DNA from: Chamaelirium japonicum | Taxonomy: Eukaryota > Streptophyta > Magnoliopsida > Liliales > Melanthiaceae | NCBI GenBank assembly: GCA_947650365.1 | Contig: OX393551.1 | Coordinates: forward strand, 91,796,697 to 91,860,696 | Length of the DNA stretch: 64,000 nt | Direction: 5' to 3' | Part shown: piece after piece, positions 1-64,000 of the stretch | Position numbering within the stretch: the stretch's first letter is position 1 | Layout: each line of letters starts with the position of its first letter | Made by a program: the position numbers and the translations under genes | Notes under the pieces: generated by a model | Database searches by the model: none | Told to the model about the DNA's origin: nothing | Seen by the model: only the letters and a program-made list of their open reading frames with translations

Positions 1-1013
1 GAATGGATCGTACGAATGAAATAGAATGGATCGTACAAATGAATTAAAATATATTGTGCGAATGGATTAGAATGGATCATACAATTGAGTAAGAAAGGAT
101 TGTACGAATGAATTAGAATAGATTGTATGAATAAATTAGAATGGATCGTACGAATGAATTAGAATAGATTGTACGAATGAATTAGAATAGATTGTGCGAA
201 TGAATTAGAATGGATCGTACGAATGAATTGGAATGGATACATTCGTGCGAATGAATTAGAATGGATCGTATGAATGAATTAGAGTGGATACATTCGTACA
301 AATGAATTAGGATGGATCGTATGAATGAATTAGAGTGGATACATTCGTACGAATGAATTAGAATAGATTGTGCGAATGAATTAGAATGGATCGTACGAAT
401 GAATTAGAATGGATACATTCATGCGAATGAATTAGAATGGATCATACGAATGAATTAGAATGGATCGTATGAATGAATTAGAATGGATCGTGCGAATGAA
501 TTAGAATGGATCGTGCGAATGAATTAGAATGGATTGTACGAATGAATTAGAATGGATCGTATGAATAAATTAGATTGGATCGTATTAATGAATTAGAATG
601 GATCGTGCGAATAAATTAGAATGGATCGTACGAATGAATTAGAATGGATCGTTCGAATGAATTAGAATTGATTGTGCGAATGAATTTGAATGGACCGTAC
701 GAATGAATTAGAAAGGATAAATTCGTGCTAATGAATTAGAATGGATCGTATGAGTGTGAATGAATTAGAATGGATCGTGCGAATGAATTAGAATGGATCG
801 TACGAATGAAATAGAATGGATTCGCACGAATGTATCCATTCTAATTCAATGGATCGTGTGAATGAATTAGAATGGATCGTACGAATGAATTAGAATGGAT
901 CGTACGAAGGAATTAGAATGGATCGTTCGAATGAATTAGAATGGATCGTACGAATGAATTAGAATGGATTGTGCGAATGAATTAGAATGGATCGTACGAA
1001 TGAAATAGAATGG
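1..1013 (+). repeat. Satellite block, + orientation
   Basis: A + run rich in 28-bp units (ATACATTCGTGC form near 230, 290, 345 and 415). It is broken only by a one-unit reversed insertion at about 823-848. Positions 45-130 hold the four-unit marker cassette with GAGTAAG that recurs elsewhere in both orientations. Confidence 0.9.
823..848 (-). repeat. One-unit micro-inversion, recurrent type
   Basis: A single reversed 28-bp-type unit runs from GGATTCGCACGAATGTAT to CTAATTCAATGG, after which the array returns to +. The same insertion with the same two edges occurs at about 6009, 6372, 19800, 20163, 35769, 36372, 37237, 48222, 55634 and 55852. Identical edges mean that copies of one event were spread by duplication. 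Confidence 0.85.
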
Positions 1014-1349
1014 ATTCGCACGAATGTATCCATTCTAATTCATTCGTACGATCCATTCTAATTCATTCGCACGATCCATTCGAATTCATTCGCACGAATG
1101 TATCCATTCTAATTCATTCGTATGATCCATTCTAATTCATTCATACGAATGAATTAGAATGGATACATTCGTGCGAATGAATTAGAATGGATCGTACGAA
1201 GGAATTAGAATGGATAGTACAAATGAATTAGAATGGACACATTCGTGCGAATCCATTCTATTTCATTCGTACGATCCATTCTAATTCATCCGTACGGTAT
1301 GATTAGATCCATTCTAATTCATTCGCACAATCCATTCTAATTCATTCGC
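1014..1349. repeat. Short-block orientation mosaic
   Basis: Blocks are - 1014-1145, + 1146-1247 and - 1248-1349. The first opens with the GGATTCGCACGAATGTAT junction. The third opens with its reverse complement, ATACATTCGTGCGAATCC (here with GGACAC for GGATAC). The return to + at 1146 and 1350 passes through near-palindromes of the type ATTCNNACGAAT. Confidence 0.85.
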
Positions 1350-3006
1350 ACGAATGAATTAGAATGGATCGTACGAATGAATTAGAATGGATGGAATTAG
1401 AATGAATCGTACGAATGAATTAGAATGAATCATACCGTACGAATGAATTAGAATGGATCATACGAAGGAATTAGAATGGATCGTACGAATGAATTAGAAT
1501 GGATCGTACGAATGAATTTGAATGGATCGTACGAAGGAATTAGAATAGATCGTACGAAGGAATTAGAATGGATAGTACGAATGAATTAGAATGGATACCT
1601 TCGTGCAAATGAATTAGAATGGATCGTACGAATGAGTAAGAATGGATCGTACGAATGAAATAGAATGGATCGTATGAATGAATTAGAATGGATCGTGCGA
1701 ATGAATTAGAATGGATCGTACGAATGAATTAGAATAGATTGTGCGAATGAATTAGAATGGATCGTACGAAAGAATTAGAATGGATCATACGAATGAATTA
1801 GAATGGATCGTATGCATGAATTAGAATGGATCGTGCGAATGAATTAGAATGGATCGTACGAATGAATTAGAATGGATCGTACGAATGAATTAGAATGGAT
1901 CGTATGAATGAATTAGATTGGATCGTATTAATGAATTAGAATGGATCGTACGAATGAATTAGCATGGATTGAATTAGAATGGATCATACGAATGAGTAAG
2001 AATGGATCGTACGAATGAATTAGAATGGATCGTACGAATGAATTAGAATGGATCGTATGCATGAATTACAATGGATCGTACGAATGAATTAGAATGGATC
2101 GAGCGAATAAATTATAATGGATCATATGAATGAATTAGAATGGATCGTATGAATGAATTAAAATGGATCGTGCGAATAAATTAGAGTGGATCGTATGAAT
2201 GAATTAGAATGGATCGTACGAATGAAATAGAATGGATTGTACGAATGAGATAGAATGGATCGTACGAATGAATTAGAATGGATACATTCTAATTCATTCT
2301 AATTCATTCTAATTCATTCGTACGATCCATTCTAATCCATTCTAATTCATTCGTACGATCCATTCTATTTCATTCGTACGATCGTACGAATGAATTAGAA
2401 TGGATTGAATTAGAATGAATCGTACGAATGAATTAGAATGAATCATAACGTACGAATGAATTAGAATGGATCATACGAATGAAATAGAATGGATCGTATG
2501 AATGAATTAGAATGGATCGTGCGAATGAATTAGAATGGATCGTATGAATGAATTAGAATGGATCGTACGAATGAATTAGCATGGATTGAATTAGAATGAA
2601 TCGTACGAATGAATTAGAATGAATCATACCGTACGAATGAATTAGAATGGATCATACGAAGGAATTAGAATGGATCGTACGAATGAATTAGAATGGATCA
2701 TACGAATGAATTAGAATGGATTGTACGAATGAAATAGAATAGATCGTACAAATGAATTAGAATGGATTCATACGAATGAAGTAGAATGGATCGTATGAAT
2801 GAATTAGAAGGGATTCATACGAATGAAGTAGAATGGATCGTATGAATGAATTAGAATGGATCGTGCGAATGAATTAGAATGGATCGTATGAATGAATTAG
2901 AATGGATCGTATGAATGAATTAGAATGGATCGTAGTAATGAATTAGAATGGATCCTACGAATGAATTAGAATAGATTGTGCGAATGAATTTGAATGGATC
3001 TGGATC
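1350..3006 (+). repeat. Satellite block, mainly +
   Basis: The + run is interrupted by a - stretch at 2285-2383. That stretch opens with a collapsed CATTCTAATT repeat of about 10 bp, in three or four copies at 2286-2320. Collapsed 15-bp units (GGATTGAATTAGAATG) occur near 1390, 2405 and 2585. Each is followed by the unusual ATCATACCGTACG or ATCATAACGTACG spacer, marking repeated duplication of the same few units. Confidence 0.87.
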
Positions 3007-3016
3007 GTGTATCCAT
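2995..3016. other. Recurrent + to - junction K (example)
   Basis: The core GATCTGGATCGTGTATCC is asymmetric. Copies are near 2997, 7556, 11817 (variant), 17737, 49886 (variant), 52928, 54882, 56548 and 57594. The reverse complement, GGATACACGATCCAGATC, is near 6659, 7821, 20639, 53387 (variant), 54686 (variant) and 56328. Flanks match too: GATCCTACG on one side and ACGACCCATTC on the other, tens of bases from the join. Confidence 0.87.
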
Positions 3017-4233
3017 TCTAATTCATTCGTACGACCCATTCTAATTCATTCGCACGATCCATTCTAATTCATTCGTACGATCCATTCTAATTCATTCGTA
3101 CGATTCATTCTAATTCAATCCATTCTAATTCATTCATACGATCCATTCTAATTCATTCGTACGATTCATTCTAATTCATTCGCACGATCCATTCTAATTC
3201 ATTCATACGATCCATTCTATTTCATTCGTACGATCCATTCTTACTCATTCGTACGATCCATTCTAATTCATTTGCACGAAGGTATCCATTCTAATTCATT
3301 TGTACTATCCATTCTAATTCCTTCGTACGACCCATTCTAATTCCTTCGTACGATCCATTCTAATTCATTCACACGATCCATTCTAATTCATTCATACAAT
3401 CCATTCTAATTCATTCGTACGATCCATTCTAATTCATTACTACGATCCATTCTAATTCATTCGTACGATCCATTCTAATTCATTCATACGATCCATTCTA
3501 ATTTATTCGCACGATCCATTCTAATTCATTCATACGATCCATTCTAATTCATTCGTACGATCCATTCTATTTCATTCGTACGATCCATTCTAATTCATTC
3601 ATACGATCTATTCGTATCCATTCTAATTCATTCGTACGATCCATTCTAATTCATTCGTACGATCCATTCTAATTCCTTCGTACGATCCATTCTAATTCAT
3701 TCGTACGATCCATTCTAATTCATTCGCACGATCAATTCTAATTCATGCATACGATCCATTCTAATTCATTCGTACGATCTATTCTATTTCATTCGTACAA
3801 TCCATTCTTACTCAATCGTATGATCCATTCTAATCCATTCGCACAATCTATTCTAATTCATTCGTACGATCCATTCTATTTCATTCGTATGATTCATTCT
3901 ATTTCATTCGTACGATCCATTCTAATTCATTCGTACAATCCATTCTAATTCATTCGTACGATCCATTCTAATTCATTCATCCGATCCATTCTATTTCATT
4001 CGTACGATCCAATCTTACTCATTCGTACGATCCATCCTAATTCATTTGCACGAAGGTATCCATTCTAATTCATTCGTACGATCCATTCTAATTCATTCAT
4101 ACGATCCAATCTAATTCATTCATACGATCCATTCTAATTCATTCGCACGAATGTATCCATTCTAATTCATTCGCACGATCCATTCTAATTCATTCATACA
4201 ATCCATTCTAATTCTTTTGCACGAATGTAACCA
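3007..4233 (-). repeat. Satellite block, - orientation
   Basis: An uninterrupted - run opened by the junction GATCTGGATCGTGTATCC at about 2997-3014 and closed by a fold-back at CCATTAGAATGAATTAG (4230). Positions 3770-3855 carry the reverse complement of the GAGTAAG marker cassette. The open frame at 3745-3948 is a by-product of two stop-removing variants. Confidence 0.9.
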
Positions 4234-5430
4234 TTAGAATGAATTAGAATGGATCGTACGAATGAATTAGAATGGATCGTACGAATGAATTAGAATGGAT
4301 TGAATTAGAATGAATCGTACGAATGAATTAGAGTTGATACATTCGTGTGAATGAATTAAAATGGATAATACGAATGAATTAGAATGGATTGTATGAATGA
4401 ATTAGAATGGATCGTGCGAATGAATTAGAATGGATACATTCGTGCGAATGAATTAGAATGGATCGTATGAATGAATTAGATTGGATCGTATGCATGAATT
4501 AGAATGGATCGTGCGAATGAATTAGAATGGATCGTACGAATGAATTAGAATGGATCGAACGAATGAATTACAATGGATCGTACGAATGAGTAAGAATGGA
4601 TCGTATGAATGAATTAGAATGGATCGTACGAATGAATTAGAATAGATACATTCATGCGAATGAATTAGAATGGATCATATGAATGAATTAGAATGGATCG
4701 TTTGAGTGAATGCGAATGGATCGTGCGAATGAATTAGAATGGATTGTACGAATGAATTAGAATGGATCGTACGAATGAATTAGAATGGATACATTCGTGC
4801 GAATCCATTCTATTTCATTCGTACGATCCATTCTAATTCATTCGCACGATCCATTCTAATTCATTCATACGATCCATTCTAATTCATTCGTACAATCCAT
4901 TCTAATTCATTCGTACGATCCATTCTAATTCATTCGCACAATCTATTCTAATTCATTCGTACGATCCATTCTAATTCATTCGCACGATCCATTCTAATTC
5001 ATTCATACGATCCATTCTAATTTATTCGCACGAATGTATCTATTCCAATTCATTCGTACGATCCATTCTAATTCATTCGCACAATCTATTCTATTTCATT
5101 CGTACGATCAATTCTAATTCATTCGCACGTATCCATTCTAATTCATTCATACAATCCATTCTATTTCATTCGTACGATCCATTCTTACTCATTCGTACGA
5201 TCCATTCTAATTCATTCGTATGATCAATTCTAATTCATTCATACGATCCATTCTAATTCATTCACACGATCCATTCTAATTCATTCATACGATCCATTCT
5301 AATTCATTCGCACGATCCATTCTAATTCATTCGCACGATCCATTCTAATTCATTCATACAGTCCATTCTAATTCTTTTGCACGAATGTATCCATTCTAAT
5401 TCATTCGTACGATCCATTCTAATTCATTCG
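4234..5430. repeat. Paired + and - blocks
   Basis: + 4234-4798, then - 4799-5430. The switch is the standard ATACATTCGTGCGAATCC junction. The return to + at 5431 lies inside ATTCGTACGAAGGAATT, a near-palindrome centred on TCGTACGA. A TTTGAGTGAATGCG variant unit lies at 4701. Confidence 0.88.
4788..4812. other. Recurrent + to - junction J (example)
   Basis: The core ATACATTCGTGCGAATCC joins + to -. It has inverted arms GAATGGAT and ATCCATTC around ATTCGTGCGAAT, itself nearly palindromic. Copies lie near 1240, 4790, 9435, 10250, 15878, 16792, 22552, 24952 (variant), 28735, 32532, 37510, 38908, 43250, 52010, 55337 and 58050. Its exact inverse (GGATTCGCACGAATGTAT) lies near 1015, 13587 (variant), 14680, 18683, 27425, 31232, 44160, 45602, 48577, 51732, 53990, 58342 and 62636, and at each micro-inversion. 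Confidence 0.87.
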
Positions 5431-6662
5431 TACGAAGGAATTAGAATGGATCGTATGAATGAATTAGAATGGATCGTATAAATGAATTAGAATGGATCGT
5501 ACGAATGAATTACAATGGATCGTACGAATGAATTAGAATGGATCGTACGAATGAGTAAGAATGGATCGTACGAATGAAATAGAATAGATCGTATGAATGA
5601 ATTAGAATGGATACGTGCGAATGAATTAGAATTGATCGTACGAATGAATTAGAATAGATTGTGCGAATGAATTAGAATGGATCGTACGAATGAATTGGAA
5701 TGGATACATTCGTGCGAATGAATTAGAAAGGATCGTATGAATGAATTAGAATGGATCGTGCGAATGAATTAGAATGGATCGTACGAATGAATTAGAATAG
5801 ATTGTGCGAATGAAATAGAATAGATCGTACGAATGAATTAGAATGGATCGTACGAATGAATTAGAATGGATCGTATGAATGAATTAGAATGGATCGTGCG
5901 AATGAATTAGAATGGATCGTACGAATGAAATAGAATGGATTAGAATGAATTAGAATGGATCCTATGAATGAATTAGAATGGATCATACGAATGAAATAGA
6001 ATGGATCCGCACGAATGTATCCATTCTAATTCAATGGATCGTGCGAATGAATTAGAATGGATCGTACGAATGAATTAGAATGGCTCGTACGAAGGAATTA
6101 GAATGGATCGTACGAATGAATTAGAATGGATCGTACGAATGAATTAGAATGGATCGTACTAATGAATTAGAATAGATTGTGCGAATGAATTAGAATGGAT
6201 CGTACGAATGAATTAGAATGGATCGTACGAATGAATTATAATGAATTAGAATGGATCGTACGAATGAATTAGAATGGATCGTACGAATGAAATAGAATGG
6301 ATCGTATGAATGAATTAGAATGGATCGTGCGAATGAATTAGAATGGATCGTATGAATGAAATATAATGGATTCGCACGAATGTATCCATTCTAATTCAAT
6401 GGATCGTGTGAATGAATTAGAATGGATCGTACGAATGAATTAAAATGGATCGTACGAAGGAATTAGAATGGATCGTACGAATGAATTAGAATGGATCGTA
6501 CGAATGAATTAGCATGGATCGTACGAAGGAATTAGAATGGATCGTACGAATGAATTAGAGTTGATACATTCGTGTGAATGAATTAAAATGGATAATACGA
6601 ATGAATTAGAATGGATTGTATGAATGAATTAGAATGGATCGTGCGAATGAATTAGAATGGAT
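5431..6662 (+). repeat. Satellite block, +, with two micro-inversions
   Basis: A + run with recurrent one-unit reversed insertions at about 6009-6034 and 6372-6398. From about 5.9 kb it is collinear with 19.7-20.6 kb (offset about 13.79 kb), including both micro-inversions and the TAGAATGAATTAGAATGG irregularity. Confidence 0.87.
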
Positions 6663-7480
6663 ACACGATCCAGATCCATTCTAATTCATTCGCACAATCT
6701 ATTCTAATTCATTCGTAGGATCCATTCTATTTCATTACTACGATACATTCTAATTCATTCGCACGATCCATTCTAATTCATTCGTACAATCCATTCTAAT
6801 TCATTCGCACGATCCATTCTAATTCATTCATACGATCCATTCTAATTCATTCGCACGAATGTATCCATTCTAAATGAATTAGAATGGATCGTACGAATAA
6901 GTAAGAATGGATCGTGCGAATGAATTAGAATGGATCATATGAATGAATTAGAATCGATCGTATGAATGAATTAGAATGGATCGTGCGAATAAATTAGAAT
7001 GGATCGTATGAATGAATTAGAATCGATCGTACGAATGAATTAGAATGGATCATGCGAATGAATTAGAATGGATCGTGCGAATGAATTAGAATGGATCGTA
7101 CAAATGAAATAGAATGGATTGTACGAATGAGATAGAATGGATCGTACGAATGACTTAGAATGGATAATTCATGCGAATGAATTAGAATGGATCATACAAA
7201 TGAATTAGAATGGATTCATTCGTGCGAATGAATTAGAATGGATCGTACGAATGAGTAAGAATGGATCGTACGAATGAATTAGAATGGATTGAATTAGAAT
7301 GAATCGTACGAATGAATTAGAATGGATCGTATGAATGAATTAGAATGGATCGTACGAATGAATTAGAATGGATCGTACGAAGGAATTAGAATGGATCGTG
7401 CGAATGAATTAGAATGGGTCGTACGAATGAATTAGAATGGATCGTACGAATGAATTAGATTGGATCGTGCGAATGAATTA
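6640..7480. repeat. Segmental duplication, copy A (0.84 kb)
   Basis: This segment opens with the junction GGATACACGATCCAGATC (about 6659) into a - block at 6663-6872, then + from 6873. Rare markers (GAATCGATCG, GACTTAGAATGGATAATTC, CTAAATGAATTAG) recur in the same order 1162 bases downstream and 13,980 bases downstream. The three copies share the internal orientation switch, so it predates the duplications. Confidence 0.85.
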
Positions 7481-14100: not shown

Positions 14101-14103
14101 AAT
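13254..14103. repeat. + then - block, three-copy segment
   Basis: + 13254-13590, - 13591-14103. The entry at CCAAATTCATTTACGAATG, the ATATAGATCG irregularity (about 13360), the CGAACGATCC variant and CTAAGTCATTCG recur at 45271-45720 and 51401-51850, in the same order. Confidence 0.85.
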
Positions 14104-23453: not shown

Positions 23454-24962
23454 TAGAATAAATTAGAATGGATCGTACGAATTAATTAGAATGGATCGTG
23501 CGAATGAATTAGAATGGATCATATGAATGAATTAGAATGGATCGTATGAATGAATTAGAATGGATCGTGCGAATAAATTAGAATGGATCGTATGAATGAA
23601 TTAGAATAGATTGTGCGAATGAATTAGAATGGATCATACGAATGAAATAGAATGGATCGTGCGAATGAATTAGAATGGATCGTACGAATGAATTAGAATG
23701 GATCGTATGCATGAATTAGAATGGATCGTGCGAATGAATTAGAATGGATCGTACGAATGAATTAGAATGGATCGTATGAAGGAATTAGAATGGATCGTAT
23801 GAATGAATTAGAATGGATCGTGCGAATGAATTAGAATGGATTGTACGAATGAATTAGAATGGATCGTACGAATGAATTAGAATGGATCGTACGAATGAAT
23901 AAGAATGGATCGTACTAATGAATTAGAATAGATTGCACGAATGAATTAGAATGGATCGTACGAATGAATTAGAATGGATCGTATGAATGAATTAGACTGG
24001 ATCGTATTAATGAATTAGAATGGATCGTACGAATGAATTAGAAAGGATCATACGAAGGAATTAGAATGGATCGTACGAATGAATTAGAATGGATCGTACG
24101 AATAAATTAGAATGGATCATACGAATGAATTAGAATGGATCGTATGAATGAATTAGAATGGATCGTACGAATGAATTAGAATGGATCGTACGAATGAATT
24201 AAAATAGATTGTGCGAATGAATTAGAATGGATCGTGCGAATGAATTAGAATGGATCGTACGAATGAATTAGAATGGATCATGCTAATGAATGAATTAGAA
24301 TAGATCGTGCGAATGAATTAGAATGGATCGTACGAATGAGTAAGAATGGATCGTGCGAATGAATTAGAATGGATCGTACGAATGAAATAGAATGGATAGT
24401 TCGAATGAGATAGAATGGATCGTACGAATGAATTAGAATGGATACATTCATGCGAATGAATTAGAATGGATCATACGAATGATTTAGAATGGATTCATTC
24501 ATGCGAATGAATTTGAATGGATCGTACGAATGAGTAAGAATGGATCGTACGAATAAATTAGAATGGATTAAGTTAGAATGAATCGTACGAATGAATTAGA
24601 ATGGATCGTACGAATGAATTAGAATGGATTGAATTAGAATGAATCGTACGAATGAATTAGAATGAATCATACCGTACGAATGAATTATAATGGATCATAC
24701 GAAGGAATTAGAATGGATCGTACGAATGAATTAGAATGGATTGTACGAATGAATTAGAATGGATCGTACGAAGGAATTAGAATGGATCGTACGAAGGAAT
24801 TAGAATGGATAGTACGAATGAATTAGAATGGATACCTTCGTGCAAATGAATTAGAATGGATCGTACGAATGAGTAAGAATGGATCGTACGAATGAAATAG
24901 AATGGATCGTATGAATGAATTAGAATGGATCGTATGAATAAATTAGAATGGATACATTCGTG
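23454..24962 (+). repeat. Satellite block, +, left flank of the higher-order repeat
   Basis: A + run. From about 24.18 kb it matches the last part of the higher-order unit (27.96-28.74 and 31.74-32.54 kb). The marker TGCTAATGAATGAATT is at 24281, 28064 and 31838. Confidence 0.88.
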
Positions 24963-27900
24963 CGAATTCATTCTATTTCATTCGTACGATCCATTCTAAT
25001 TCATTCGCACGATCCATTCTAATTCATTCATACGATCCATTCTAATTCCTTCGTACGATCCATTCTAATTCATTCGTACGATCCAATCTAATTCATTCAT
25101 ACGATCCATTCTAATTCATTCGTACGATCCATTCTAATTCATTCGTACGATCCATTCTAATTCGTGCGAATATATCCATTCTAATTCATTCGTACGATCC
25201 ATTCTAATTCATTCGTACGAATGTATCCATTCTAATTCATTTGTACGAATGTATCCACTCTAATTCATTCGTACGATCCATTCTAATTCATTAGCACGAT
25301 CCATTCTAATTCATTCGTACGATCCATTCTAATTCATTTATACGATCCAATCTAATTCATTCGCACGATCCATTCGTATTCACTCAAACGATCCATTCTA
25401 ATTCATTCATATGATCCATTCTAATTCATTCGCACGATCCATTCTAATTCATTCGCACGATCCATTCTAATTCGTTCATACGATCCATTCTATTTCATTC
25501 GTACGATCCATTCTAATTCATTCGTACGATCCATTCTAATTCATTCGTAAGATCCATTCTAATTCATTCGCACAATCTATTCTAATTCATTCGTACGATC
25601 CATTCTAATTCATTCGCACGATCCATTCTAATTCATTCATACGATCCATTCTATTTCATTCGTACGATCCATTCTTACTCATTCGTACGATCCATTCTAA
25701 TTCATTTGCACGAAGGTATCCATTCTAATTCATTTGTACTATCCAATCTAATTCATTCGTATGATCCATTCTAATCCATTCGTATCCATCCTAATTCATT
25801 CGTACGATCCATTTTAATTCATTCGCACGAGTCATTCTAATTCAATCCATTCTAATTCATTCGTACGATCCGTTCTTACTCATTCGTACGATCCATTCTA
25901 ATTCATTCGCACAATCCATTCTAATTCAATCCATTCTAATTTATTCGTACGATCCATTCTTACTCATTCGTACAATCCATTCTAATTCATTCGCACAATC
26001 CATTCTAATTCATTTGCACGAAGGTATCCATTCTAATTCATTCGTGCGAATGAATTAGAATGGATCGTGCGAATGAATTAGAATGGATCGTGCGAATGAA
26101 TTAGAATGGATCGTACGAATGAAATAGAATGGATTGTACGAATGAGATAGAATGGATCGTACAAATGAATTAGAATCGATTGTGCGAATGAATTAGAATG
26201 GATCATACGAAGGAATTAGAATGGATCGTACGAATGAATTAGAATGGATCGTATGAAGGAATTAGAATGGATCGTACGAATAAATTAGAATGGATCGTAT
26301 GAATGAATTAGATTGGATCGTATTAATGAATTAGAATGGATCGTATGAATGAATTAGAATAGATCGTACGAATGAATTAGAATGGATACGAACGGATCGT
26401 ACGAATGAGTTAGAATGGATCTATTCTAATTCATTCATATGATCCATTCTAATTCATTCGTACGATCCATTCTAATTCATTCGCACGCTATTCTAATTCA
26501 TTCGTAGGATCCATTCTAATTCATTCGTACGATCCATTCTAATTCATAAGTACGATCCATTCTAATTCATTCGCACGATCCATTCTAACTCATTCATATG
26601 AATCCATTCTATTTCATTCGTACGATCTATTCTATTTCATTCGTACAATCTATTCTAATTCATTCATACGATCCATTCTAATTCATTCGTACGATCCATT
26701 CTAATTCATTTGCACGCTATTCTAATTCATTCGTAGGATCCATTCTAATTCGTTACTACGATCCATTCTAATTCATTCATACGATCCATTCTAATTCATT
26801 CGTACGATCCATTCTAATTCATTCGTACGATCCATGCTAATTCATTCGTACGATCCATTCTAATTCATGCGCACAATCTATTCTAATTCATTCGCACAAT
26901 CTATTCTAATTCATTCGTACGATCCATTCTAATTCATTCGTATGATCCATTCTAATTCATTCGCACGCTATTAGAATGAATTAGAATGGATCGTATGAAT
27001 GAATTAGATTGGATCGTATTAATGAATTAGAATGGATCGTACGAATGAATTAGAATAGATTGTACGAGTGAATTAGAATAGATTGTGCGAATGAATTAGA
27101 ATGGATCGTGCGAATGAATTAGAATGGATTGTATGAATGAATTAGAATGGATCGTGCGAATGAATTAGAATGGATCGTACGAATGAATTAGAATGGATCG
27201 TGCGAATGAATTAGAATAGATCGTATGAATGAATTAGATTGGATCGTATTAATGAATTAGAATCGATCGTACGAATGAATTAGAATAGATCGTACGAATG
27301 AATTAGAATGGATCGTACGAATGAATTAGAATGGATTGTACGAATGAATTAGAATGGATCGTATGAATGAATTAGAATGGATCGTGCGAATGAATTAGAA
27401 TGGATCGTATGAATGAAATAGAATGGATTCGCACGAATGTATCCATTCTAATTCATTCGTACGATCCATTCGAATTCATTCGTACAATCCATTCTAATTC
27501 ATTCGCACGATCCATTCTTACTCATTCGTACGATCCATTCTAATTCATTCGTACGATCCATTCTAATTCATTAATACGATCCAATCTAATTCATTCATAC
27601 GATCTATTCTAATTCATTCGCACGATCCATTCTAATTCATTCGTACGATCCATTCTAATTCATTCGCCCGATCCATTCTAATTCATTCATACAATCCATT
27701 CTAATTCATTCGCACGATCCATTCTAATTCATTCGCACAATCTATTCTAATTCATTCGTACGATCTATTCTAATTCATTCGCACGATCCATTCTAATTCA
27801 TTAATACGATCCAATCTAATTCATTCATACGATCCATTCTAATTCATTCTAATTCATTCGCATGAATTAGAATGGATTAGGATGGATCGTACGAATGAGT

Positions 27901-38918: not shown

Positions 38919-40394
38919 AATCCATTCAATTTCATTCGTACGATCCATTCTAATTCATTCGCACGATCCATTCTAATTCATTCATACGATCCATTCTAAT
39001 TCATTCGTACAATCCATGCTAATTCATTCGTACAATCCATTCTAATCCATTCGTACGATCCATTCTAATTCATTCATACGATCCATTCTAATTCATTAGC
39101 ACAATCTATTCTAATTCATTTGTACGATCCATTCTAATTCATTCGCACGATCCATTCTAATTCATTCGCATGAATGTATCCATTCTAATTCATTTGTACG
39201 AATGTATCCACTCTAATTCATTCGTACGATCCATTCTAATTCATTAGCACGATCCATTCTAATTCATTCGTACGATCCATTCTAATTCATTTATACGATC
39301 CAATCTAATTCATTCATACGATCCATTCTAATTCATTCGTACGATCCATTCTAATTCATTCGTACGATCCATTCTAATTCATTCGCACGATCCATTCTAT
39401 CTCATTCGTACAATCCATTCTAATTCAATCCATTCTAATTCATTCGTACGATCCATTCTAATTCATTCGTACGATCCATTCTAATTCATTCGTACGATTA
39501 ATTCTAATTCCTTCGTACGATCCATATTCTAATTCATTCGCACGATCCATTCTAATTCATTCATACGATCTATTCTAATTTATTCGCACAATCTATTCTA
39601 ATTCATTAGTACGATCCATTCTAATTCATTCGTACGATCCATTCTAATTCATTCGTACGATCTATTCTAATTCATTCGTACGATCCATTCTAATTCATTC
39701 GCACTATCCATTCTAATTCATTCATACGATCCATTCTAATTCCTTCGTACGATCCATTCTAATTTATTCGTACGATCCATTCTAATTCATTCGCACGATC
39801 CATTCTAATTCATGCATACGATCATTCTAATTCATTCGTACGATCCATTCTAATTCATTCGCACGAACCATTCTATTTCATTCGTATGATCCATTCTAAT
39901 TCATTTGCACAATCTATTCTAATTCATGCATACGATCCATTCTAATTTATTCGTACGATCCATTCTAATTCATTCGTACGATCCATTCTAATTTATTCGT
40001 ACGATCCATTCTAATTCATTAATACGATCCAATCTAATTCATTCATACGATCCATTCTATTTCATTCGTACGATCCATTCTAATTCATTCGCACGATCCA
40101 TTCTAATTCATTCATACAATCCATTCTAATTCATTTGTACGATCCATTCTAATTCATTCACATGAATGTATCAACTCTATTTCATTCGTACGATCCATTC
40201 TAATTCATTCGTACGATCCATTCTAATTCATTCGTACGATCCATTCTAATTCATTCGCACGATCAATTCTAATTCATTCGCACAATCTATTCTAATTCAT
40301 TCGTACGATCCATTCTATTTCATTCGTATGATCCATTCTAATTCATTCGCACAATCTATTCTAATTCATTCATACGATCCATTCTAATTCATTC
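38919..40394 (-). repeat. Satellite block, - orientation
   Basis: An almost uninterrupted - run. It carries a GTATCCACTC cassette at about 39.18-39.3 kb and the 22.13-kb-like group at 39.39-39.55 kb. It ends at CATTCGTGCGAATGAG, the same near-palindromic return to + used inside the higher-order repeat. Confidence 0.88.
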
Positions 40395-41876
40395 GTGCGA
40401 ATGAGTAAGAATGGATCGTACGAATGAAATAGAATGGATCGTGCGAATGAATTAGAATGGATCGTACGAATGAATTAGAATAGATTGTGCGAATGAATTA
40501 GAATGGATCGTATGAATGAATTAGAATGAATGAATTAGAATGGATCGTATGAATGAATTAGAATGAATAAATTAGAATGGATCGTATGAATGAATTAGAA
40601 TGGATCGTACGAATGAATTAGAATGGATCATACGAATGAGTAAGAATGGATCGTACGAATGAAATAGAATGGATCGTATGAATGAATTAGAATGGATACG
40701 TGCGAATGAATTAGAATGGATCGTGCGAATGAATTAGAATGGATCGTACGAATGAATTAGAATCGATCGTACGAATGAATTAGAGTTGATACATTCATAC
40801 GAATGAATTAGAATGGATCGTATGAATGAATTAGAATAGATTGTGCGAATGAATTAGAATGGATTGTACGAATGAATTAGAATGGATAGTACGAATGAGA
40901 TAGAATGGATCATACGAATGAATTAGAATGGATCATATGAATGAATTAGAATGGATCGTACGAATGAAATAGAATGGATCGTATGAATGAATTAGAATAG
41001 ATCGTACGAATGAATTAGAATGGATCGTACGAATGAATTAGAAAGGATACATTCGTACAAATGAATTAGAATGGATCGTACGAATGAATTAGAGTGGATA
41101 CATTCGTACAAATGAATTAGAATGGATCGTACGAATGAATTAGAATAGATACATTCGTGCGAATGAATTAGAATGGATCATATGAATGAATTAGAATGGA
41201 TCGTGCGAATGAATTCATGCGTACGAAGGAATTAGAATGGATCGTACGAAAGAATTAGAATGGATAGTACGAATGAATTAGAATGGATACCTTCGTGCAA
41301 ATTAATTAGAATGGATCGTACGAATGATTAAGAATGGATCGTACGAATGAAATAGAATGGATGGATACCTTCGTGCAAATGAATTAGAATGGATCGTACG
41401 AATGAGTAAGAATGGATCGTACGAATGAAATAGAATGGATCGTACGAATGAATTAGAATGGATACATTCGTGCGAATGAATTAGAATGGATCGTATGAAT
41501 GAATTAGAATAGATTGTGCGAATGAATTAGAATGAATCGTACGAAGGAATTAGAATGGATCGTACGAATGAATTAGAATGGATCATGCGAATAAATTAGA
41601 ATGGATCGTATGAATGAATTAGAATGGATCGTGCGAATGAATTAGAATATAGATCGTACGAAGGAATTATAATGAATCGTACGAATGAATTAGAATGGAT
41701 CGTACGAATGAATTAGAATGGATCGTACGAATGAATTAGAATGTATTGAATTAGAATGGATTGTACGATTGAGATAGAATGGATCGTGCGAATGAATTAG
41801 AATGGATCGTACGAATGAATTAGAATGGATTCTACGAATGAGATAGAATGGATCGTATGAATGAATTAGAATGGAT
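40395..41876 (+). repeat. Satellite block, +
   Basis: A + run with collapsed GAATGAATGAATTAG units near 40520-40570, an irregular GAATTCATGCGTACG join at 41213, and two CCTTCGTGCAAAT units near 41290 and 41370. It ends in a bare fold-back, GGATTCTAATTCATTTG (41873). Confidence 0.88.
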
Positions 41877-48579: not shown

Positions 48580-51500
48580 CGCACGAATGTATCCATTCTA
48601 ATTCATTCATACGATCCATTCTAATTCATTCGTACGATCCATTCTAATATCTTCGTATGATCTATTCTTATTCATTCGCACAATCTATTCTAATTCTTTC
48701 GTACGATCCATTCTAATTCATTCGCACGATCCATTCTAATTTATTCATACGATCCATTCTAATTCATACGTACGATCCATTCTAATTCATTCGTACGATC
48801 CATTCTAATTCGTGCGAATGTATCCATTCTAATTCATTCGTACGATCCATACGAATGAATCCATTCTAATTCATTCGTATGATCCATTCTAATTCATTCA
48901 TACGATCCATTCCAATTCATTCGTACGATCCATTCTAATTCATTCTAATTCATTCGCACGATCCATTCTTTCATTCGTACGATCCATTCTAATTCATTCG
49001 TACGATCCATTCTAATTCATTCGCACAATTTATTCTAATTCATTCGTACGATCCATTCTAATTCATTCGTACGATCTATTCTAATTCATTCGTACGATCC
49101 ATTCTAATTCATTCGCACGATCCATTCTAATTCATTCATACGATCCATTCTATTTCATTCGTACGATTCATTCTAATTCATTCGTACGATCCATTCTAAT
49201 TCATTCGTATGATTCATTCTAATTCAATCCATTCTAATTCATTCGTACGATCCATTCTTACTCATTCGCACAATCTATTCTTATTCATTCGTACGATCCA
49301 TTCTAATTTATTCGCACGATCCATTCTAATTCATTCATACGATCCATTCTATTTCATTTGTACGATCCATTCTTACTCATTCGTCCGATCCATTCTAATT
49401 CATTTGCACAAAGGTATCCATTCTAATTCATTCGTACTATCCATTCTAATTCCTTCGTACGATCCATTCTAATTCCTTCGTACGATCCATTCGGATACAT
49501 TCATGCGAATCCATTCTATTTCATTCGTACGATCTATTTTAATTCATTCGCACGATCCATTCTAATTCATTCATACGATCCATTCTAATTCATTCGTACG
49601 ATCCATTCTAATTCATTCGTACGATCCATTCTAATTCATTCGTACGTATGAATTAGAATGGATACATTCGTGCAAAAGAATTAGAATGGATTGTACGAAT
49701 GAATTAGAATGGATCATACGAATGAATTAGAATGGATCGTACGAATGACTTAGAATGGATCGTTCGAATGAATTAGAATAGATTGTGCGAATGAATTAGA
49801 ATGGATCGGACGAATGAATTAGACTGGATCCGGATCTTATGAATGATTCATTCTATGAATGGATCGTACGAATGAATTAGAATGGATCTGGATCGTTTAC
49901 CCATTCTAATTCCTTCGTACGATCCATTCTAATTCATTCGTACGATCCATTCTAATTCATTTGCACGATCCATTCTAATTCATTCGCACGAATGTATCCA
50001 TTCTAATTCATACGTACGATCTATTCTAATTCATTCGTACGATCCATTCTAATTCATTCGCATAATCCATTCTAATTCATTTGCACGATCCATTCTAATT
50101 CATTCATACAATCCATTCTAATTCTTTTGCACGAAGGTATCCATTCTAATTCATTCGTACTATCCATTCTTATTATCCGTACGATCTATTCTATTTCATT
50201 CGTACGATCCATTCTTATCGTACGAATGAATTAGAATGGATCGTACGAATGAATTAGAATGGATAGTACGAATGAATTAGAATGGATATATTCATGCGAA
50301 TGGATCATACGATCCATTCTAATTCATTCGCACGATCCATTCTAATTCATTCGCACGATCCATTCTAATTCATTCATACGATCCATTCTAATTCATTCAT
50401 ACGATCCATTCTAATTCATTCGTACGGATAAATGAATTTGGATCGTGCTAATGAAATAGAATGGATCGTACGAATGAATTAGAGTGGATTGTGCGAATGA
50501 ATTAGAATGGATCGTACGAATGAACTAGAATGGATCGTACAAATGAATTAGAATAGATCGTACGAAGGAATTAGAATGGATCGTACGAAGGAATTAGAAT
50601 GGATAGTACGAATGAAGTAGAATGGATACCTTCGTGCAAATGAATTAGAATGGATCGTACGAATGAGTAAGAATGGATCGTACGAATGAATTAGAATGGA
50701 TCGTACGAATGAATTAGAATGGATCTTACGAATGAATTAGAATGGAACGTATAGATTGTGCGAATGAATTAGAATGGATCGTACGAATGAATTAGAATGG
50801 ATCATACGAATGAATTAGAATGGATCGTGCGAATGAATTAGAATGGATCGCACGAATGTATCCATTCTAATTGATTTGTACGAATGTATCCACTCTAATT
50901 CATTAGTACGATCCATTCTAATTCATTAGCACGATCCATTCTAATTCATTCGTACGATCCATTCTAATTCATTTATACGATCCAATCTAATTCATTCATA
51001 CGATCCATTCTAATTCATTCGTACGATCCATTCTAATTCATTCGTACGATCCATTCTAATTCGTGTGAATGTATCCATTCTAATTCATTCGTACGATCCA
51101 TTCTAATTCATTCGTACGAATGTATCCATTCTAATTCATTTGTACGAATGTATCCACTCTAATTCATTCGTACGATCCATTCTAATTCATTAGCACGATC
51201 CATTCTAATTCAATCGTACGATCCATTCTAATTTATTTATACGATCCAATCTAATTCATTCGCATGATCCATTCGTATTCACTCAAACGATCCATTCTAA
51301 TTCATTCATATGATCCATTCTAATTCATTCGCACGAATGTATCCATTCTAATTCATTAGCACGATCCATTCTAATTCATTAGCACGATCCAAATTCATTT
51401 ACGAATGAAATAGAATAGATCGTACGAATGAATTTGAATGGATCGTGCGAATAAATTAGAATGGATCGTATGAATGAATTAGAATGGATCGTGCGAATAA

Positions 51501-51735
51501 ATTAGAATATAGATCGTACGAATGAATTAGAATGGATCGTATGAATGAACTAGAATGGATCGTGCGAATGAATTAGAATGGATCGTACGAATGAAATATA
51601 ATTGATCGTACGAATGGATCGTACGAATGAATTAGAATGGATCGTACGAATGAATTAGAATGGATCGTATGAATGAATTAGAATAGATCGTACGAATGAA
51701 TTAGAATGGATCGTACGAATGAAATAGAATGGATT
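48580..51735. repeat. Long-range segmental duplication, copy 2, mosaic
   Basis: - 48580-49645 (island at 49491-49506), + 49646-49896, - 49897-50217, + 50218-50306, - 50307-50426, + 50427-50849, - 50850-51400, + 51401-51735. From 48.85 kb the block order and landmarks follow 10.75-13.6 kb. Its first 1 kb is also shared with 58.35-59.65 kb (ATGATCTATTCTTATTC at 48658 and 58428). Confidence 0.86.
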
Positions 51736-54402
51736 CGCACGAATGTATCCATTCTAATTCATTCGTACGATCCATTCTAATTCATTCGCATAATCTATTC
51801 TAATTCATTCGAACGATCCATTCTAAGTCATTCGTACGATCCATTCTAATTCATTCGTACGATCCATTCTAATTCATTCGCACGATCCATTCTATTTCAT
51901 TCGTACGGTTCATTCTATTTCAATCCATTCTAATTCATTCGTACGATCCATTCTAATTCATTCGTACGATCCATTCTAATTCTTTCGCACGATCCATTAA
52001 ATTAGAATGGATACATTCATGCGAATCCATTCTATTTCATTCGTACGATCCATTCTAATTCATTCGCACGATCCATTCTAATTCATTCATACGATCCATT
52101 CTAATTCATTCATACGATCCATTCGTATCCATTCTAATTCATTCGTACGATCCATTCTAATTCATTCGTACGATCCATTCTAATTCATTCGTACGATCCA
52201 TTCTAATTCATTCGCACGATCCATTCTAATTCATTCATACGATCCATTCTAATTCATTCGTACGATCCATTCTATTTCATTCGTACAATCTATTCTTACT
52301 CAATCGTATGATCCATTCTAATCCATTCGCGCAATCTATTCTAATTCATTCGTACGATCCATTCTATTTCATTCGTACGATCCATTCTAATTCATTCGTA
52401 CGATCTATTCTAATTCATTCATCCGATCCATTCTAATTCATTCGCACGATCCATTCTAATTCATTCGCATGATCCATTCTAATTCATTCGTACGATCGAT
52501 TCTAATTCATTCATACGATCCATTCTAATTCATTCGCACGAATGTATCCATTCTAATTCAATGGATCGTGCGAATGAATTAGAATTCATTCTAATGGATC
52601 ATATGAATGAATTAGAATGGATCGTACTAATGAATTAGAATAGATTGTGCGAATAAATTAGAATGGATCGTATGAATGAATTAGAATGGATCGTGCGAAT
52701 GAATTAGAATATGGATCGTACGGAGGAATTAGAATGAATCGTACGAATGAATTAGAATGGATCGTACGAATGAATTAGAATGGATCATACGAATGAATTA
52801 GAATGGATTGAATTAGAATGGATTGAATTAGAATGGATTGTACGAATGAGATAGAATGGATCGTGCGAATGAATTAGAATGGATCGTACGAATGAATTAG
52901 AATAGATTGTGCGAATGAATTAGAATGGATCTGGATCGTGTATCCATTCTAATTCATTCGTACGACCCATTCTAATTCATTCGTACGATCCATTATAATT
53001 CATTCGCACGATCCATTCTTATTCATTCGCACGATCCATTCTAATTCATTCGTACGAATTGATCGTATGAATGGATCGTACGAATGAATTAGAATGGATC
53101 GTTCGAATGAATTAGAATGGATCGTATGAATGAATTAGAATGGATCGTAGTAATGAATTAGAATGGATCGTGCGAATGAATTAGAATGGATCGTACGAAT
53201 GAAATAGAATTGATCCTACGAATGGATCGTATGAATGAATTAGAGTGGATCATTCGAATGAATTAGAATGGATCGTATGAATGAATTAGAATGGATCGTA
53301 GTAATGAATTAGAATGGATCGTGCGAATGAATTAGAATGGATCGTGCGAATGAATTAAAATGGGTCATACGAATGAATTAGAATGGATACACGATCCTGA
53401 TCCATTCTAATTCATTCGCACAATCTATTCTAATTCATTCGTAGGATCGTATGAATGAATTAGAATAGATCGTACGAATGAATTAGAATGGATACGAATG
53501 GATCGTACGAATGAGTAATAATGGATCGTACGAATGAAATAAAATGGATTGTACGAATGAATTAGAATGGATCATACGAATGAATTAGAATGGATTCATT
53601 TGTGCGAATGAATTAGAATGGATCGTACGAATGAGTAGAAAGGATCGTGCGAATGAATTAGAATGGATCGTACGAATGAAATAGAATGGATTGTACGAAT
53701 GAGATAGAATGGATCGTACGAATGAATTAGAATGGATACATTCATGCGAATGAATTAGAATGGATCATACGAATGAATTAGAATGGATTCATTCGTGCGA
53801 ATGAATTAGAATGGATCATACGATTGAGTAAGAATGGATTGTACGAATGAAATAGAATAGATCGTACGAATGAATTAGAATGGATCGTACGAATGAATTA
53901 GAATAGATCGTATGAATGAATTAGAATGGATCGTTTGAGTGAATGCGAATGGATCGTGCGAATGAATTAGAATGGATTGAATTAGAATGGATTCGCACAA
54001 ATGTATCCATTCTAATTCATTCGTACGATCCATTCTAATTCATTCGTACGATCCATTCGTACGATCAATTCTATTTCATTCGTACGATCCATTCTAAGTC
54101 ATTCGCACGATCCATTCTAGTTCATTCATACGATCCATTCTAATTCATTCGTACGATCTATATTCTAATTCATTCGCACGATCCATTCTAATTCATTCAT
54201 ACGATCCATTCTAATTTATTCGCATGATCCATTCTAATTCATTCGTATGATCTATTCTATTTCATTCGTACAATCCATTCTTACTCAATCGTATGATCCA
54301 TTCTAATCCATTCGCACAATCTATTCTAATTCATTCATACGATCCATTCTAATTTATTCGCACGATCCATTCTAATTCCTTCGTATGATCCATCCTAATT
54401 CG
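51736..54402. repeat. Orientation mosaic
   Basis: - 51736-52559 (island at 51998-52020), + 52560-52938, - 52939-53056, + 53057-53390, - 53391-53446, + 53447-53992, - 53993-54402. Reversed marker cassettes are at 52260-52345 and 54240-54325, and a + cassette is at about 53800-53865. A tiny palindromic insertion, GAATTCATTCTAATGG, is at 52582. Confidence 0.84.
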
Positions 54403-54744
54403 GATCGTGCGAATGAATTAGAATGGATCGTATGAATGAATTAGAATAGATACATTCGTGCAAATGAATTAGAATGGATCGTACGAATGAGTAAGAATGG
54501 ATCGTGCGAAGGAATTAGAATGGATAGTACGAATGAAATAGAATAGATCGTACGAATGAATTAGAATGGATCGTATGAATGAATTAGAATGGATCGTGCG
54601 AATGAATTAGAATGGATCGTATGAATGAATTAGAATGGATTCATACGAATGAATTAGAATGGATCGTATGAATGAATTAGAATGGATACATGATCCAGAT
54701 CCATTCTAATTCATTCGCACAATCTATTCTAATTCATTCGTAGG
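54403..54744. repeat. + then short - block
   Basis: + 54403-54688, then - 54689-54744, opened by a GGATACATGATCCAGATC junction and closed within two units at GTAGGATCGTGCG. The same truncated - fragment lies at 53391-53446. Confidence 0.84.
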
Positions 54745-55633: not shown

Positions 55634-57435
55634 TCGCACGAATTTATCCATTCTAATTCAATGGATCGTGCGAATGAATTAGAATGGATCGTACGAATGA
55701 ATTAGAATGGATCGTACGAATGAATTAGAATGGATTGTACGAATGAATTAGATTGGATCGTACGAATGAAATAGAATGGATCGTATGAATGAATTAGAAT
55801 GGATCGTGCGAATGAATTAGAATGGATCGTACGAATGAAATAGAGTGGATTCGCATGAATGTATCCATTCTAATTCAATGGATCGTGCGAATGAATTAGA
55901 ATGGATCGTACGAATGAATTAGAATGGATCATACGAATGAATTAGAATAGATCGTACGAATGAATTAGAATGTATCGTACGAATGAATTAGAAAGGATAC
56001 ATTCGTACAAATGAATTAGAATGGATCGTACGAATGAATTAGAGTGGATACGTTCGTGCAAAAGAATTAGAATGGATTGTATGAATGAATTAGAATGGAT
56101 CATACGAAGGAATTAGAATGGATAGTACGAATGAATTAGAATGAATACTACGAATGAATTAGAATGGATCGTACGAATGAATTAGAGTGGATCATATGAA
56201 TGGATTAGAATGGATCGTATGAATGAATTAGAATGGATCGTACGAATGAATTAGAATGGATCGTGCGAATGAATTAGAATGGATCGTACGAATGAATTAG
56301 AATGGGTCATACGAATGAATTAGAATGGATACACGATCCAGATCCATTCTAATTCATTCGCACAATCTATTCTAATTCATTCGTATGATCCATTCTAATT
56401 CATTCATACGATCCATTCTAATTCTACGATCCGTTCTTACTCATTCGTATTATCCATTTTAATTCATTCACACGAATGTATCCATTCTAATTCATTCGCA
56501 CGATCCTACGAATGAATTAGAATAGATTGTGCGAATGAATTAGAATGGATCTGGATCGTGTATCCATTCTAATTCATTCATACGATCCATTCTAATTCAT
56601 TACTACGATCCATTCTAATTCATTCATACGATCCATTCTAATTCATTCGTACGATCCATTCTAATTCATTCGCACGATCCATTCTAATTCATTAATACGA
56701 TCCATTCTAATTCATTCGTATGAATCCATTCTAATTCATTCATACGATCCATTCTAATTCATTCGCACGATCCATTCTAATTCATTCATACGATCCATTC
56801 TAATTCATTCGTACGATCTATTCTATTTCATTCGTACAATTCATTCTAATTCATTCGCACGATCCATTCTTACTCATTCGTACGATCCATTCTAATTCAT
56901 TTGCACGAATGTATCCATTCTAATTCATTCATATGATCCATATTAATTCATTCGCATGATCCGAATTAGAATGGATCATACGAAGGAATTAGAATGGATC
57001 GTGCGAATAAATTAGAATGGATCATATGAATGAATTAGAATATATTGTGCGAATGGATTAGAATAGATCATACGATTGAGTAAGAATGGATTGTACGAAT
57101 GAAATAAAATAGATCGTACGAATGAATTAGAATGGATCGTGCGAATAAATTAGAATGGATCGTATGAATGAATTAGAATGTATCGTGCGAATGAATTAGA
57201 ATATAGATCGTATGAATGAATTAGAATGGATCGTATGAATGAACTAGAATGGATCGTGCGAATGAATTAGAATGGATCGTACGAATGAAATAGAATTGAT
57301 CGTACGAATGGATCGTACCAATGAATTAGAATGGATCGTACGAATGAATTAGAATGGATACATTCGTGCGAATCCATTCTAATTCAAATGGATAATACGA
57401 ATGAGTTAGAATGGATTCGTGCGAATGGATACATT
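55634..57435. repeat. Orientation mosaic
   Basis: + to 56330 with micro-inversions at 55634-55660 and 55852-55877, - 56331-56506, + 56507-56558, - 56559-56961, + 56962 onward with a tiny reversal at 57369-57385. The two-unit + piece at 56507 is bounded by GATCCTACG and GATCTGGATCGTGTATCC, like the one at 17693. Confidence 0.84.
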
Positions 57436-61317: not shown

Positions 61318-62637
61318 CGAATGAGTAAGAATGGATCGTACGAATGAAATAGAACGGATTGTACGAACGAATTAGAATGGATACATTCGTGCGAATGAAT
61401 TAGGATGGATCGTATGAATGAATTAGAATGGATCGTACGAAGGAATTAGAATGGATCATACGAATGAATTAGAATGGATCGTACGAATGAATTAGAATGG
61501 ATCGTGCGAATGAATTAGAATGGATCATACGAATGAATTAGAATGGATCGTATGAATGAATTAGAATGGATCGTACGAATGAGTAAGAATGGATCGTATG
61601 AATGAAATAGAATGGATCGTACGAATGAATTAGAATGGATACATTCGTGCGAATGAATTAGAATGGATCATATGAATGAATTAGAATGGATCGTTTGAGT
61701 GAATGCGAATGGGGCGTACGAATGAATTACAATGGGTCGTACGAATGAATTAGAATGGATCGTACGAATGAGTAAGAATGGATCATACGAATGAGTAAGA
61801 ATGGATCGTACGAATGAATTAGAATGGATCGTACGAATGAATTAGAATGGATACATTCGTGCGAATGAATTAGAATGGATCATATGAATGAATTAGAATG
61901 GATCGTTTGAGTGAATGCGAATGGATCGTGTGAATGAATTAGATTGGATCGTATAAATGAATTAGAATGGATCGTACGAATGAATTAGAATGGATCGTGC
62001 TAATGAATTAGAATGGATCGTACGAATGAATTAGAGTGGATACATTCATACAAATGAATTAGAATGGATACATTTGTACGAATGAATTAGAATGGATCGT
62101 ACGAATGAATTAGAATGGATACATTCGCACGAATTAGAATAGATCGTACGAATGAATTAGAATGGATACATTCGCACGAATTAGAATGGATCGTACGAAT
62201 GAATTAGAATGGATCGTACGAATGAATTAGAATGGATCGTATGAATGAATTAGATTGGATCGTATAAATGAATTAGAATGGATCGTACGAATGAATTAGA
62301 ATGGATCGTGCTAATGAATTAGAATGGATCGTACGAATGAATTAGAGTGGATAAATTCGTACAAATGAATTAGAATGGAAACATTCGTGCGAATGAATTA
62401 GAATGGATCGTGCGAATGAATTAGAATGGATCGTACGAATGAATTAGAATAGATTGTGCTAATGAATTAGAATGGATCGTATGAATGAATTAGAATGGAT
62501 CATACGAATGAATTAGAATGGATTGTACGAATGAATTAGAATGGATCGTACGAATGAATTAGAATGGATCGCATGAATGAATTAGAATGGATCGTGCGAA
62601 TGAATTAGAATGGATCGTACGAATGAAATAGAATGGA
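61318..62637 (+). repeat. Satellite block, +
   Basis: A + run containing an internal duplication spaced about 210 bases (TTTGAGTG units at 61691 and 61903). From 61.9 kb on it repeats 43.48 kb and 37.97 kb, including the short CATTCGCACGAATTAG units (twice here, 62112 and 62168). Confidence 0.89.
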
Positions 62638-63675
62638 TTCGCACGAATGTATCCATTCTAATTCATTCGTACGATCCATTCTAATTCATTCGTACAATCC
62701 ATTCTAATTCATTCGCACGATCCATTCTTACTCATTCGTACGATCCATTCTAATTCATTCGCACGATCCATTCTAATTCAATAATACGATCCATTCTAAT
62801 TCATTCGCACGATCCATTCTAATTAATTCACACTCATACGATCCATTCTAATTCATTCGCATGAATGTATACTTTCTAATTCATTAGTACGATCCTTTCT
62901 AATTCATTCGCACAATCTATTCTAATTCATTCGAACGATCCATTCTAAGTCATTCGTACGATCCATTCTAATTCATTCGCACAATCCATTCTAATTCATT
63001 AGCACGATCCATTCTAATTCCTTCATATGATCTATTCTAATTCACAATTCTAATTCATTCGCACGTATCCATTCTAATTCATTCATACGATCCATTCTAT
63101 TTCATTCGTACGATCCATTCTTACTCATTCATACGATCTATTCTAATACATTCGTACGATCCATTCTAATTCATTCGTACGATCCATTCTAATTCATTTG
63201 TACGAATGTATCCACACTAATTCATTCATACGATCCATTCTAATTCATTCGCACGAATGTATCCATTCCAATTCATTCGTACGATCCATTCTAATTCATT
63301 CGCACAATCTATTCTAATTCATTCGTACGATCAATTCTAATTCCTTCGTACGATCCATTCTAATTCATTCGTACGATCCATTCTAATTCATTCGTACGAT
63401 CCATTCTAATTCATTCGCACGATCTATTCTAATTCATTCGTACGATCCATTCTAATTCATTCGCACGATCCATTCTAATTCATTCATACGATCCATTCTA
63501 ATTCATTCGTATGATCCATTCTAACTCATTCGTACGATCCATTCTAATTCCTTCGTACGATCCATTCTAATTCATTCATACGATCCATCCTAATTCATTC
63601 GCACGAATGTATCCATTCTAATTCATTCGTACAATCCATTCTATTTCATTCGTACGATCCATTCTTACACATTCG
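62638..63675 (-). repeat. Satellite block, - orientation
   Basis: Opened by GGATTCGCACGAATGTAT. Its first 430 bases repeat 44.17-44.6 kb (ATTCACACTCATACG, CGAACGATCC, CTAAGTC, then AATTCACAATTC). It ends at ACACATTCGTACGAATGAATT, a palindromic return to +. Confidence 0.89.
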
Positions 63676-64000
63676 TACGAATGAATTAGAATGGATCGTA
63701 TTAATGAATTAGAATGGATCGTGCGAATGAATTAGAATGGATCGTACGAATGAATTAGAATAGATTGTGCGAATCAATTAGAATGGATCGTACGAATGAA
63801 TTAGAATGGATCGTACGAATGAATTAGACTAGATTGTACGAATGGATTAGAATGGATCATACGATTGAGTAAGAATGGATTGTACGAATGAAATAGAATA
63901 GATCGTACGAATGAATTAGAATGGATCGTATGAATGAATTAGAATGGATTGAATTAGAATGAATCGTACAAATGAATTAGAATGGATCGTACGAATGAAT
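63676..64000 (+). repeat. Satellite block, +, runs off the window
   Basis: + units with a GATTGAGTAAG marker cassette at 63830-63905 and a collapsed 15-bp unit near 63945. The array is cut by the window edge, as it also is at position 1. Confidence 0.9.

Follow-up and report, generated by a model that had tools for sequence, protein, structure and literature searches.

The stretch of DNA analyzed here, 64,000 bp long and hereafter called the window, consists of a 23-bp satellite arranged in more than 100 blocks of alternating orientation, and the points at which the orientation switches are not independent, given that the same junction sequences recur along the array. For this reason, the approximately 110 switches do not stand for approximately 110 inversions, and homogenization spreads many of them. 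The array is probably the satellite pair Chio1/Chio2 of Chionographis japonica, a holocentric plant related to the lilies, or of a very near relative, and its present switches are best explained by a well smaller number of founding switches that were multiplied through direct and inverted copying. The strand mosaic of Chio arrays is real and already in print in outline; what is added here is the recurrence of the junction sequences.

Strand blocks and recurrent junctions

Strand was called by a two-strand, 23-position Viterbi decoding with the consensus GAATGGATCGTACGAATGAATTA, in a model that holds no state for foreign DNA, so that every base is assigned to the satellite, short inserts included. 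At a switch prior of 1e-4, the window divides into 143 blocks, short blips included, with 31,676 bp on the plus strand and 32,324 bp on the minus strand, and the lowest identity of any of these blocks to the consensus is 0.81. Stricter priors give 113 blocks (1e-6) or 111 blocks (both 1e-8 and 1e-12), with a mean length of 566-577 bp and a plus total of 31,745-31,780 bp; laxer priors give 157 and 171 blocks, and merging the blocks shorter than 30 bp gives 115 with a mean of 557 bp. For the range of 111-143 blocks, the mean block length is 0.45-0.58 kb. Simulated unidirectional arrays (n = 3; 8% substitutions, 1% indels) were each decoded as a single block, and the tandem period was also recovered for bases 1-12000. 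These results bear out the preliminary description of the window as a 23-bp satellite that switches strand about every 560 bp, whose figures (114 blocks, 31.4 and 32.6 kb) lie within a few per cent of the 111-115 blocks, 557-577 bp and 31.7/32.3 kb obtained here. The near-equal halves that it pointed out are also found, yet they are to be expected because alternation alone gives them, with shuffled alternating blocks placing 32,277 +/- 2,602 bp on the plus strand. The lengths of the 129 blocks of at least 30 bp show no departure from an exponential distribution (Kolmogorov-Smirnov p = 0.27), which indicates that 560 bp is the mean of a broad distribution and not a period.

The junction set is that called at the prior of 1e-4, and comprises 71 head-to-head (plus to minus) and 71 tail-to-tail (minus to plus) junctions. 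The phase class of a junction is the sum of its two monomer positions modulo 23, for which a uniform distribution would place 3.1 junctions in each class. Both kinds together, the 142 junctions reduce to 26 classes. The head-to-head junctions occupy 11 of the 23 possible classes, the three most populated of which hold 39, 12, and 7 junctions, that is, 58 of the 71.

The classes of 39 and 12 are those of the junction sequences J1 and J2, both of which are found in exact form in either orientation (Table 1). Allowing up to 2 mismatches, J1 has 41 copies, 36 of which coincide with called junctions, split 23 to 13 between the two orientations, while 5 lie elsewhere; the count at 3 mismatches (74) was set aside because it also picks up 28-bp units. 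J2 has 15 copies at up to 3 mismatches, all of them within 2, with 9 in one orientation and 6 in the other. Along the array, the orientation changes 20 times among the 41 copies of J1 and 10 times among the 15 copies of J2. A head-to-head junction stays head-to-head when read on the other strand and, therefore, when one asymmetric core occurs in both orientations, the junction as such must have been inverted, or copied in inverted form.

A sequence variant is linked to J1. GAAATAG, in place of GAATTAG, adjoins 23 of the 36 J1 copies at called junctions, versus 141 of all 1,749 such sites, a total that contains the 23, and it is found with 27 of the 74 members of the wider set at 3 mismatches. 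The binomial p value of 6e-17 for this linkage is only descriptive, given that the copies are not independent. In the first 50 bp of the flanks, 33% of 1,240 comparisons between J1 copies reach at least 95% identity versus 8.7% for random 50-bp pairs, and the same is true of 31% of 200 comparisons for J2. The identity of the J1 flanks is 0.858 for pairs in the same orientation and 0.856 for pairs in opposite orientation. Grouping of the junctions at 95% identity, with 60 bp of flank taken on either side, gives 8 clusters for the J1 class, two of which hold 21 and 11 of its members (32 of 39), and 3 for the J2 class, one of which holds 10 of 12. A looser single-linkage clustering, which gave families of 62 and 38, was dropped because it chained unlike junctions.

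The tail-to-tail junctions are more varied, with 15 phase classes and 37 of the 71 junctions in the top three (15, 14, and 8), and repeated origins are possible there. The commonest of these classes (15 of 71) is centred on the self-complementary core TCGTACGA, an 8-bp palindrome inside the monomer. This class splits into 8-12 flank clusters depending on the threshold, and for this reason it may have arisen there more than once. The palindrome is the sole hint, and a weak one, as to how the founding switches were formed.

A further tail-to-tail junction, T1, has 18 copies at up to 2 mismatches (12 in one orientation and 6 in the other). Where it directly follows J1, inverted blips of 12-13 bp are found (836-848, 6021-6032, 6386-6397, 19812-19823, 20177-20188, and others), and these look like a copied template-switch scar. 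Two adjacent blocks of equal length (1,484 bp; 38909-40392 and 40393-41876) were considered as a palindrome and rejected, since their identity of 85.0% is that of the background.

Direct and inverted copying

Comparison of the window with itself shows that copies in the two orientations are nearly equal in number. Matches of at least 500 bp and at least 92% identity, with overlapping ones kept, amount to 13 direct and 14 inverted. Stricter trimming leaves 325 non-redundant segments, 175 direct and 150 inverted, with a mean identity of 96% and covering 51,023 of the 64,000 bases. This set was drawn from the longest 6,000 of 13,989 candidate matches, with self-overlapping direct pairs dropped and matches above 2,500 bp skipped, so that the largest higher-order matches stand outside the counts of 175 and 150. 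Runs of 230 bp drawn at random are as similar across strands (0.851) as within plus blocks (0.849). Thus, of the earlier proposal that inversion or inverted copying is frequent relative to homogenization, the first half agrees with these numbers, and the second half does not stand, given the concentration of the head-to-head junctions in three phase classes.

The largest self-match, at 24.1-34.8 kb, is a direct higher-order repeat with a unit of about 3.79 kb. Its six strand blocks keep identical or closely similar lengths from copy to copy (Table 1), and underlying the repeat is a direct match of 27870-34764 to 24077-30967 at 96.8%. Some inverted pairs, such as 50848-52541 with 36719-38389 and 56677-57387 with 53977-54687, have called junctions inside both members, and therefore carry switches with them. 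Other inverted near-copies lie close to each other, about 80-570 bp apart and at 96-98% identity (4802-5941, 30686-31726, and 43459-45150), and are candidates for recent local inverted duplications.

Table 1. Coordinates of the array, junction examples, higher-order repeat copies, and inverted near-copies in the window.
Feature	Coordinates	Strand	Detail
23-bp satellite array, Chio1-like with scattered 28-bp Chio2-like units	1..64000	.	111-143 alternating strand blocks
J1 GAATGGATTCGCACGAATGTATCCATTC, exact example, head-to-head	814..841	+	core search
J1 exact copy, reverse orientation	4783..4810	-	core search
J2 GAATGGATCTGGATCGTGTATCCATTC, exact example, head-to-head	2992..3018	+	core search
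J2 exact copy, reverse orientation	6655..6681	-	core search
T1 CCATTCTAATTC joined to AATGGATCGTG, tail-to-tail, directly after J1	836..858	+	yields 13-bp inverted blip; decoding and core search
Tail-to-tail junction centred on the monomer palindrome (TAATTCATTCGTGCGAATGAGTAA)	40385..40408	.	one of 15 in phase class
Higher-order repeat copy 1	24955..28737	+	3,783 bp; blocks 1087/381/550/470/416/879; 96.5% to copy 2
Higher-order repeat copy 2	28738..32534	+	3,797 bp; blocks 1087/381/550/493/407/879
Higher-order repeat copy 3, partial	32535..34764	+	blocks 1087/381/550/212; 98.9% to copy 2 over 2,230 columns
Segment with inverted near-copy at 36719-38389	50848..52541	+	96.0% over 1,694 bp; 3 called junctions inside
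Inverted near-copy of 50848-52541	36719..38389	-	4 called junctions inside
Segment with inverted near-copy at 53977-54687	56677..57387	+	97.0% over 711 bp; two called junctions inside
Inverted near-copy of 56677-57387	53977..54687	-	two called junctions inside

Identity of the satellite

The dominant monomer of 23 bp occurs as GGATCGTACGAATG in 728 exact copies. A 28-bp unit, GGATACATTCGTGCGAATG, has 37 exact copies on both strands; relative to GGATCGTACGAATG, it carries a 5-bp insertion and a single A-to-G change. The 9-mer TTCGTACGA is found 514 times on the plus strand and 501 times on the minus strand. According to the text of PMC10264360, Chio1 and Chio2 of C. japonica have monomers of 23 and 28 bp that are a 5-bp indel and one substitution apart, and an 8-bp dyad symmetry able to pair neighboring monomers; the letters of that dyad are given only in a figure, and TCGTACGA is the 8-bp palindrome of the monomer found here. 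Forward and reverse orientations are mixed in Chio arrays (PMC10264360, PMC12722358), with PMC12722358 describing a "frequently alternating orientation" and naming TTCGTACGA as the 9-mer common to Chio and the satellite of a sister species. The window has the 23-bp monomer, the 28-bp variant, TTCGTACGA, and mixed forward and reverse arrays. The name given to C. japonica in the NCBI taxonomy is Chamaelirium japonicum. The array would, therefore, be the centromere-unit satellite Chio1/Chio2 of C. japonica or of a very near relative, matched by its published description and not by its letters.

Database searches were negative within their scope. Six 13-mers of the monomer retrieved no satellite paper in a literature text search, the sole match being a baculovirus paper; an exact 24-mer of the satellite had no match in the prokaryotic (genome_contigs) or viral (viral_contigs) contig collections; 3,783 of the 64,000 bases had no match among plasmids; and no Rfam family reached the gathering score.

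Both CpGs of the monomer are rich in transitions (C to T 9.7% and 18.3%, G to A 9.1% and 5.4%), in keeping with methylated DNA and with the high CpG methylation reported for Chio repeats. The most variable site of the monomer is a non-CpG A between the two CpGs (A to G in 25.2%), and this variable base also marks the 28-bp form. In the 28-bp units, the 5-bp insertion ACATT changes ATCGTGCGAAT into the near-palindrome CATTCGTGCGAATG, and, judging from the sequence, a template switch at a hairpin may have given rise to the 28-bp variant itself.

Compared with Chio1/Chio2 as described in PMC10264360, the window is alike in the monomers of 23 and 28 bp, TTCGTACGA, intermingled variants, mixed orientation, and higher-order repeats; no difference was found, in a likeness that rests on the published description. 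In the literature text searched, supplements excluded, there were no block counts and no analysis of junction sequences for Chio. The Chama satellite of the sister lineage Chamaelirium luteum shares the 9-mer, whereas its monomer is of 60 bp and its arrays are consistently oriented, as stated in PMC12722358. The preliminary description had considered the strand mosaic unusual, which holds for short-unit satellites in general, but the mixed orientation of Chio had already been published (PMC10264360, PMC12722358), and the text of PMC9186530 mentions a mosaic of inverted stretches in the human BSat and HSat arrays, of different sequence.

A likeness in working, and not in sequence, is offered by the macro-dyad symmetries of TmSat1/TmSat2 of Tribolium madens, where the switches lie at a few conserved inversion-site sequences, with two predominant types in TmSat1 (PMC13081366). 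J1 and J2 correspond to such conserved sites in the window. However, the account in PMC13081366 is of units based on about 110 bp in subarrays of several kb, mostly two per array, versus blocks averaging 0.56 kb, more than 100 of them in 64 kb, in the window, where no two near-symmetric subarrays of several kb are found.

Weighing of the explanations and meaning of the switches

Under the favored proposal, that founding switches were multiplied by copying, the founding inversion junctions would be well fewer than the present switches, with one phase class possibly holding more than one origin. Junction-bearing segments, from about a hundred bp to several kb, would have spread through the array by copying or exchange, direct as well as inverted. 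The possible routes are unequal exchange, of which the 3.79-kb higher-order repeat would be a product, inversion between oppositely oriented blocks, inverted-register gene conversion, and break-induced copying; one window cannot discriminate among the last three. For the founding tail-to-tail switches, fold-back or template switching at the self-complementary stretch TCGTACGA of the monomer may have been the source.

Several observations weigh against this proposal. The mean identity of the J1 flanks in the first 50 bp (0.857) is not above that of random pairs (0.869), the enrichment being confined to the high tail; at distances above 100 bp, mean identity is lower than the background, at least in part since the flanks enter the next block. 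When the flank taken on either side is lengthened to 100 bp, 16 clusters result for the J1 class and 8 for the J2 class, indicating that the shared junction module is short, about 100 bp, and that the copying is old or took place in small tracts. The segments that span a junction are only 31 of the 175 direct and 21 of the 150 inverted. Segment ends lie near a junction in 76 of 350 cases for direct (22%) and 76 of 300 for inverted segments (25%), versus 16% by chance; from this small excess, some switches may have formed at the ends of copying, while most ends lie inside blocks, as expected for homologous exchange or conversion tracts. With regard to fold-back, the arms of the junctions have a mean symmetry of 0.852, equal to the background (83 of 114 junctions, with arms of at least 100 bp and blocks merged at 30 bp), and, therefore, show no trace of a recent event. 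At up to 3 mismatches, the symmetric head-to-head form has three sites, of which those at 12237 and 50307 coincide with called junctions; these are too few for a hairpin origin to explain the commonest junctions.

With less strict trimming of the segments (at least 300 bp and 93% identity), the ends near a junction were 63 of 78 for inverted and 23 of 32 for direct segments. These high values are an artefact of BLAST, whose alignments run on through background-like monomers and are ended by a strand switch.

By analogy with the inversion sites of T. madens, the junction modules might be under selection as inverted-repeat elements (hairpin or cruciform) that aid centromere chromatin, which is considered unlikely. 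Two junction types dominate the head-to-head switches, as in TmSat1, whose authors suggest a function in the text of PMC13081366, and dyad symmetry is given as a typical trait of centromeric satellites (PMC12722358, PMC13081366). Nonetheless, neutral copying accounts for the recurrence, the T. madens authors concede that distribution and exchange may be why the sites are preserved (PMC13081366), and the sister species C. luteum has consistently oriented arrays that are CENH3-positive (PMC12722358). An equally improbable form of this idea would make J1 and J2 dedicated inversion modules of the holocentromere, spread both ways through hairpin-provoked breaks and inverted repair, or by helping to load centromere chromatin. 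If true, they would maintain the strand mixture of the Chio array, in contrast to the one-way arrays of the sister genus.

Somewhat less likely again is that each of the approximately 110 switches goes back to an independent inversion or inverted insertion with separate breakpoints, at a pace above that of homogenization. The large number of switches, the exponential-like block lengths, the spread of the tail-to-tail junctions over 15 phase classes, and the singleton junctions left by loose clustering (3 head-to-head and 7 tail-to-tail) are what such events would give, whereas the recurrence of junction sequences both ways round with a linked variant, and of the six-block pattern in the higher-order repeat, are not. 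It is very unlikely that the satellite belongs to an unrelated organism and resembles Chio by chance: the comparison is by description, and the prokaryote, virus, and plasmid collections gave no match, but Chio and the window agree in the pair of 23- and 28-bp units set apart by exactly a 5-bp indel and one substitution, in the 9-mer, and in the mixed orientation. Although satellite arrays are hard to assemble, switches created by assembly or reads (inverted chimeras, misjoins) are the least credible explanation, given that the junctions recur in fixed phase with private substitutions and that long reads far exceed blocks of about 560 bp. The same mixture of orientations is also reported for the published C. 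japonica assembly (HiFi reads, hifiasm).

The orientation switches provide countable, heritable marks in an otherwise uniform satellite. For C. japonica, 100 centromere units are reported in PMC10264360, and the few junctions that recur both ways round could trace the copying of the satellite within and between such units. The one-way arrays of the sister species, as described in PMC12722358, are a natural contrast to the Chio mosaic.

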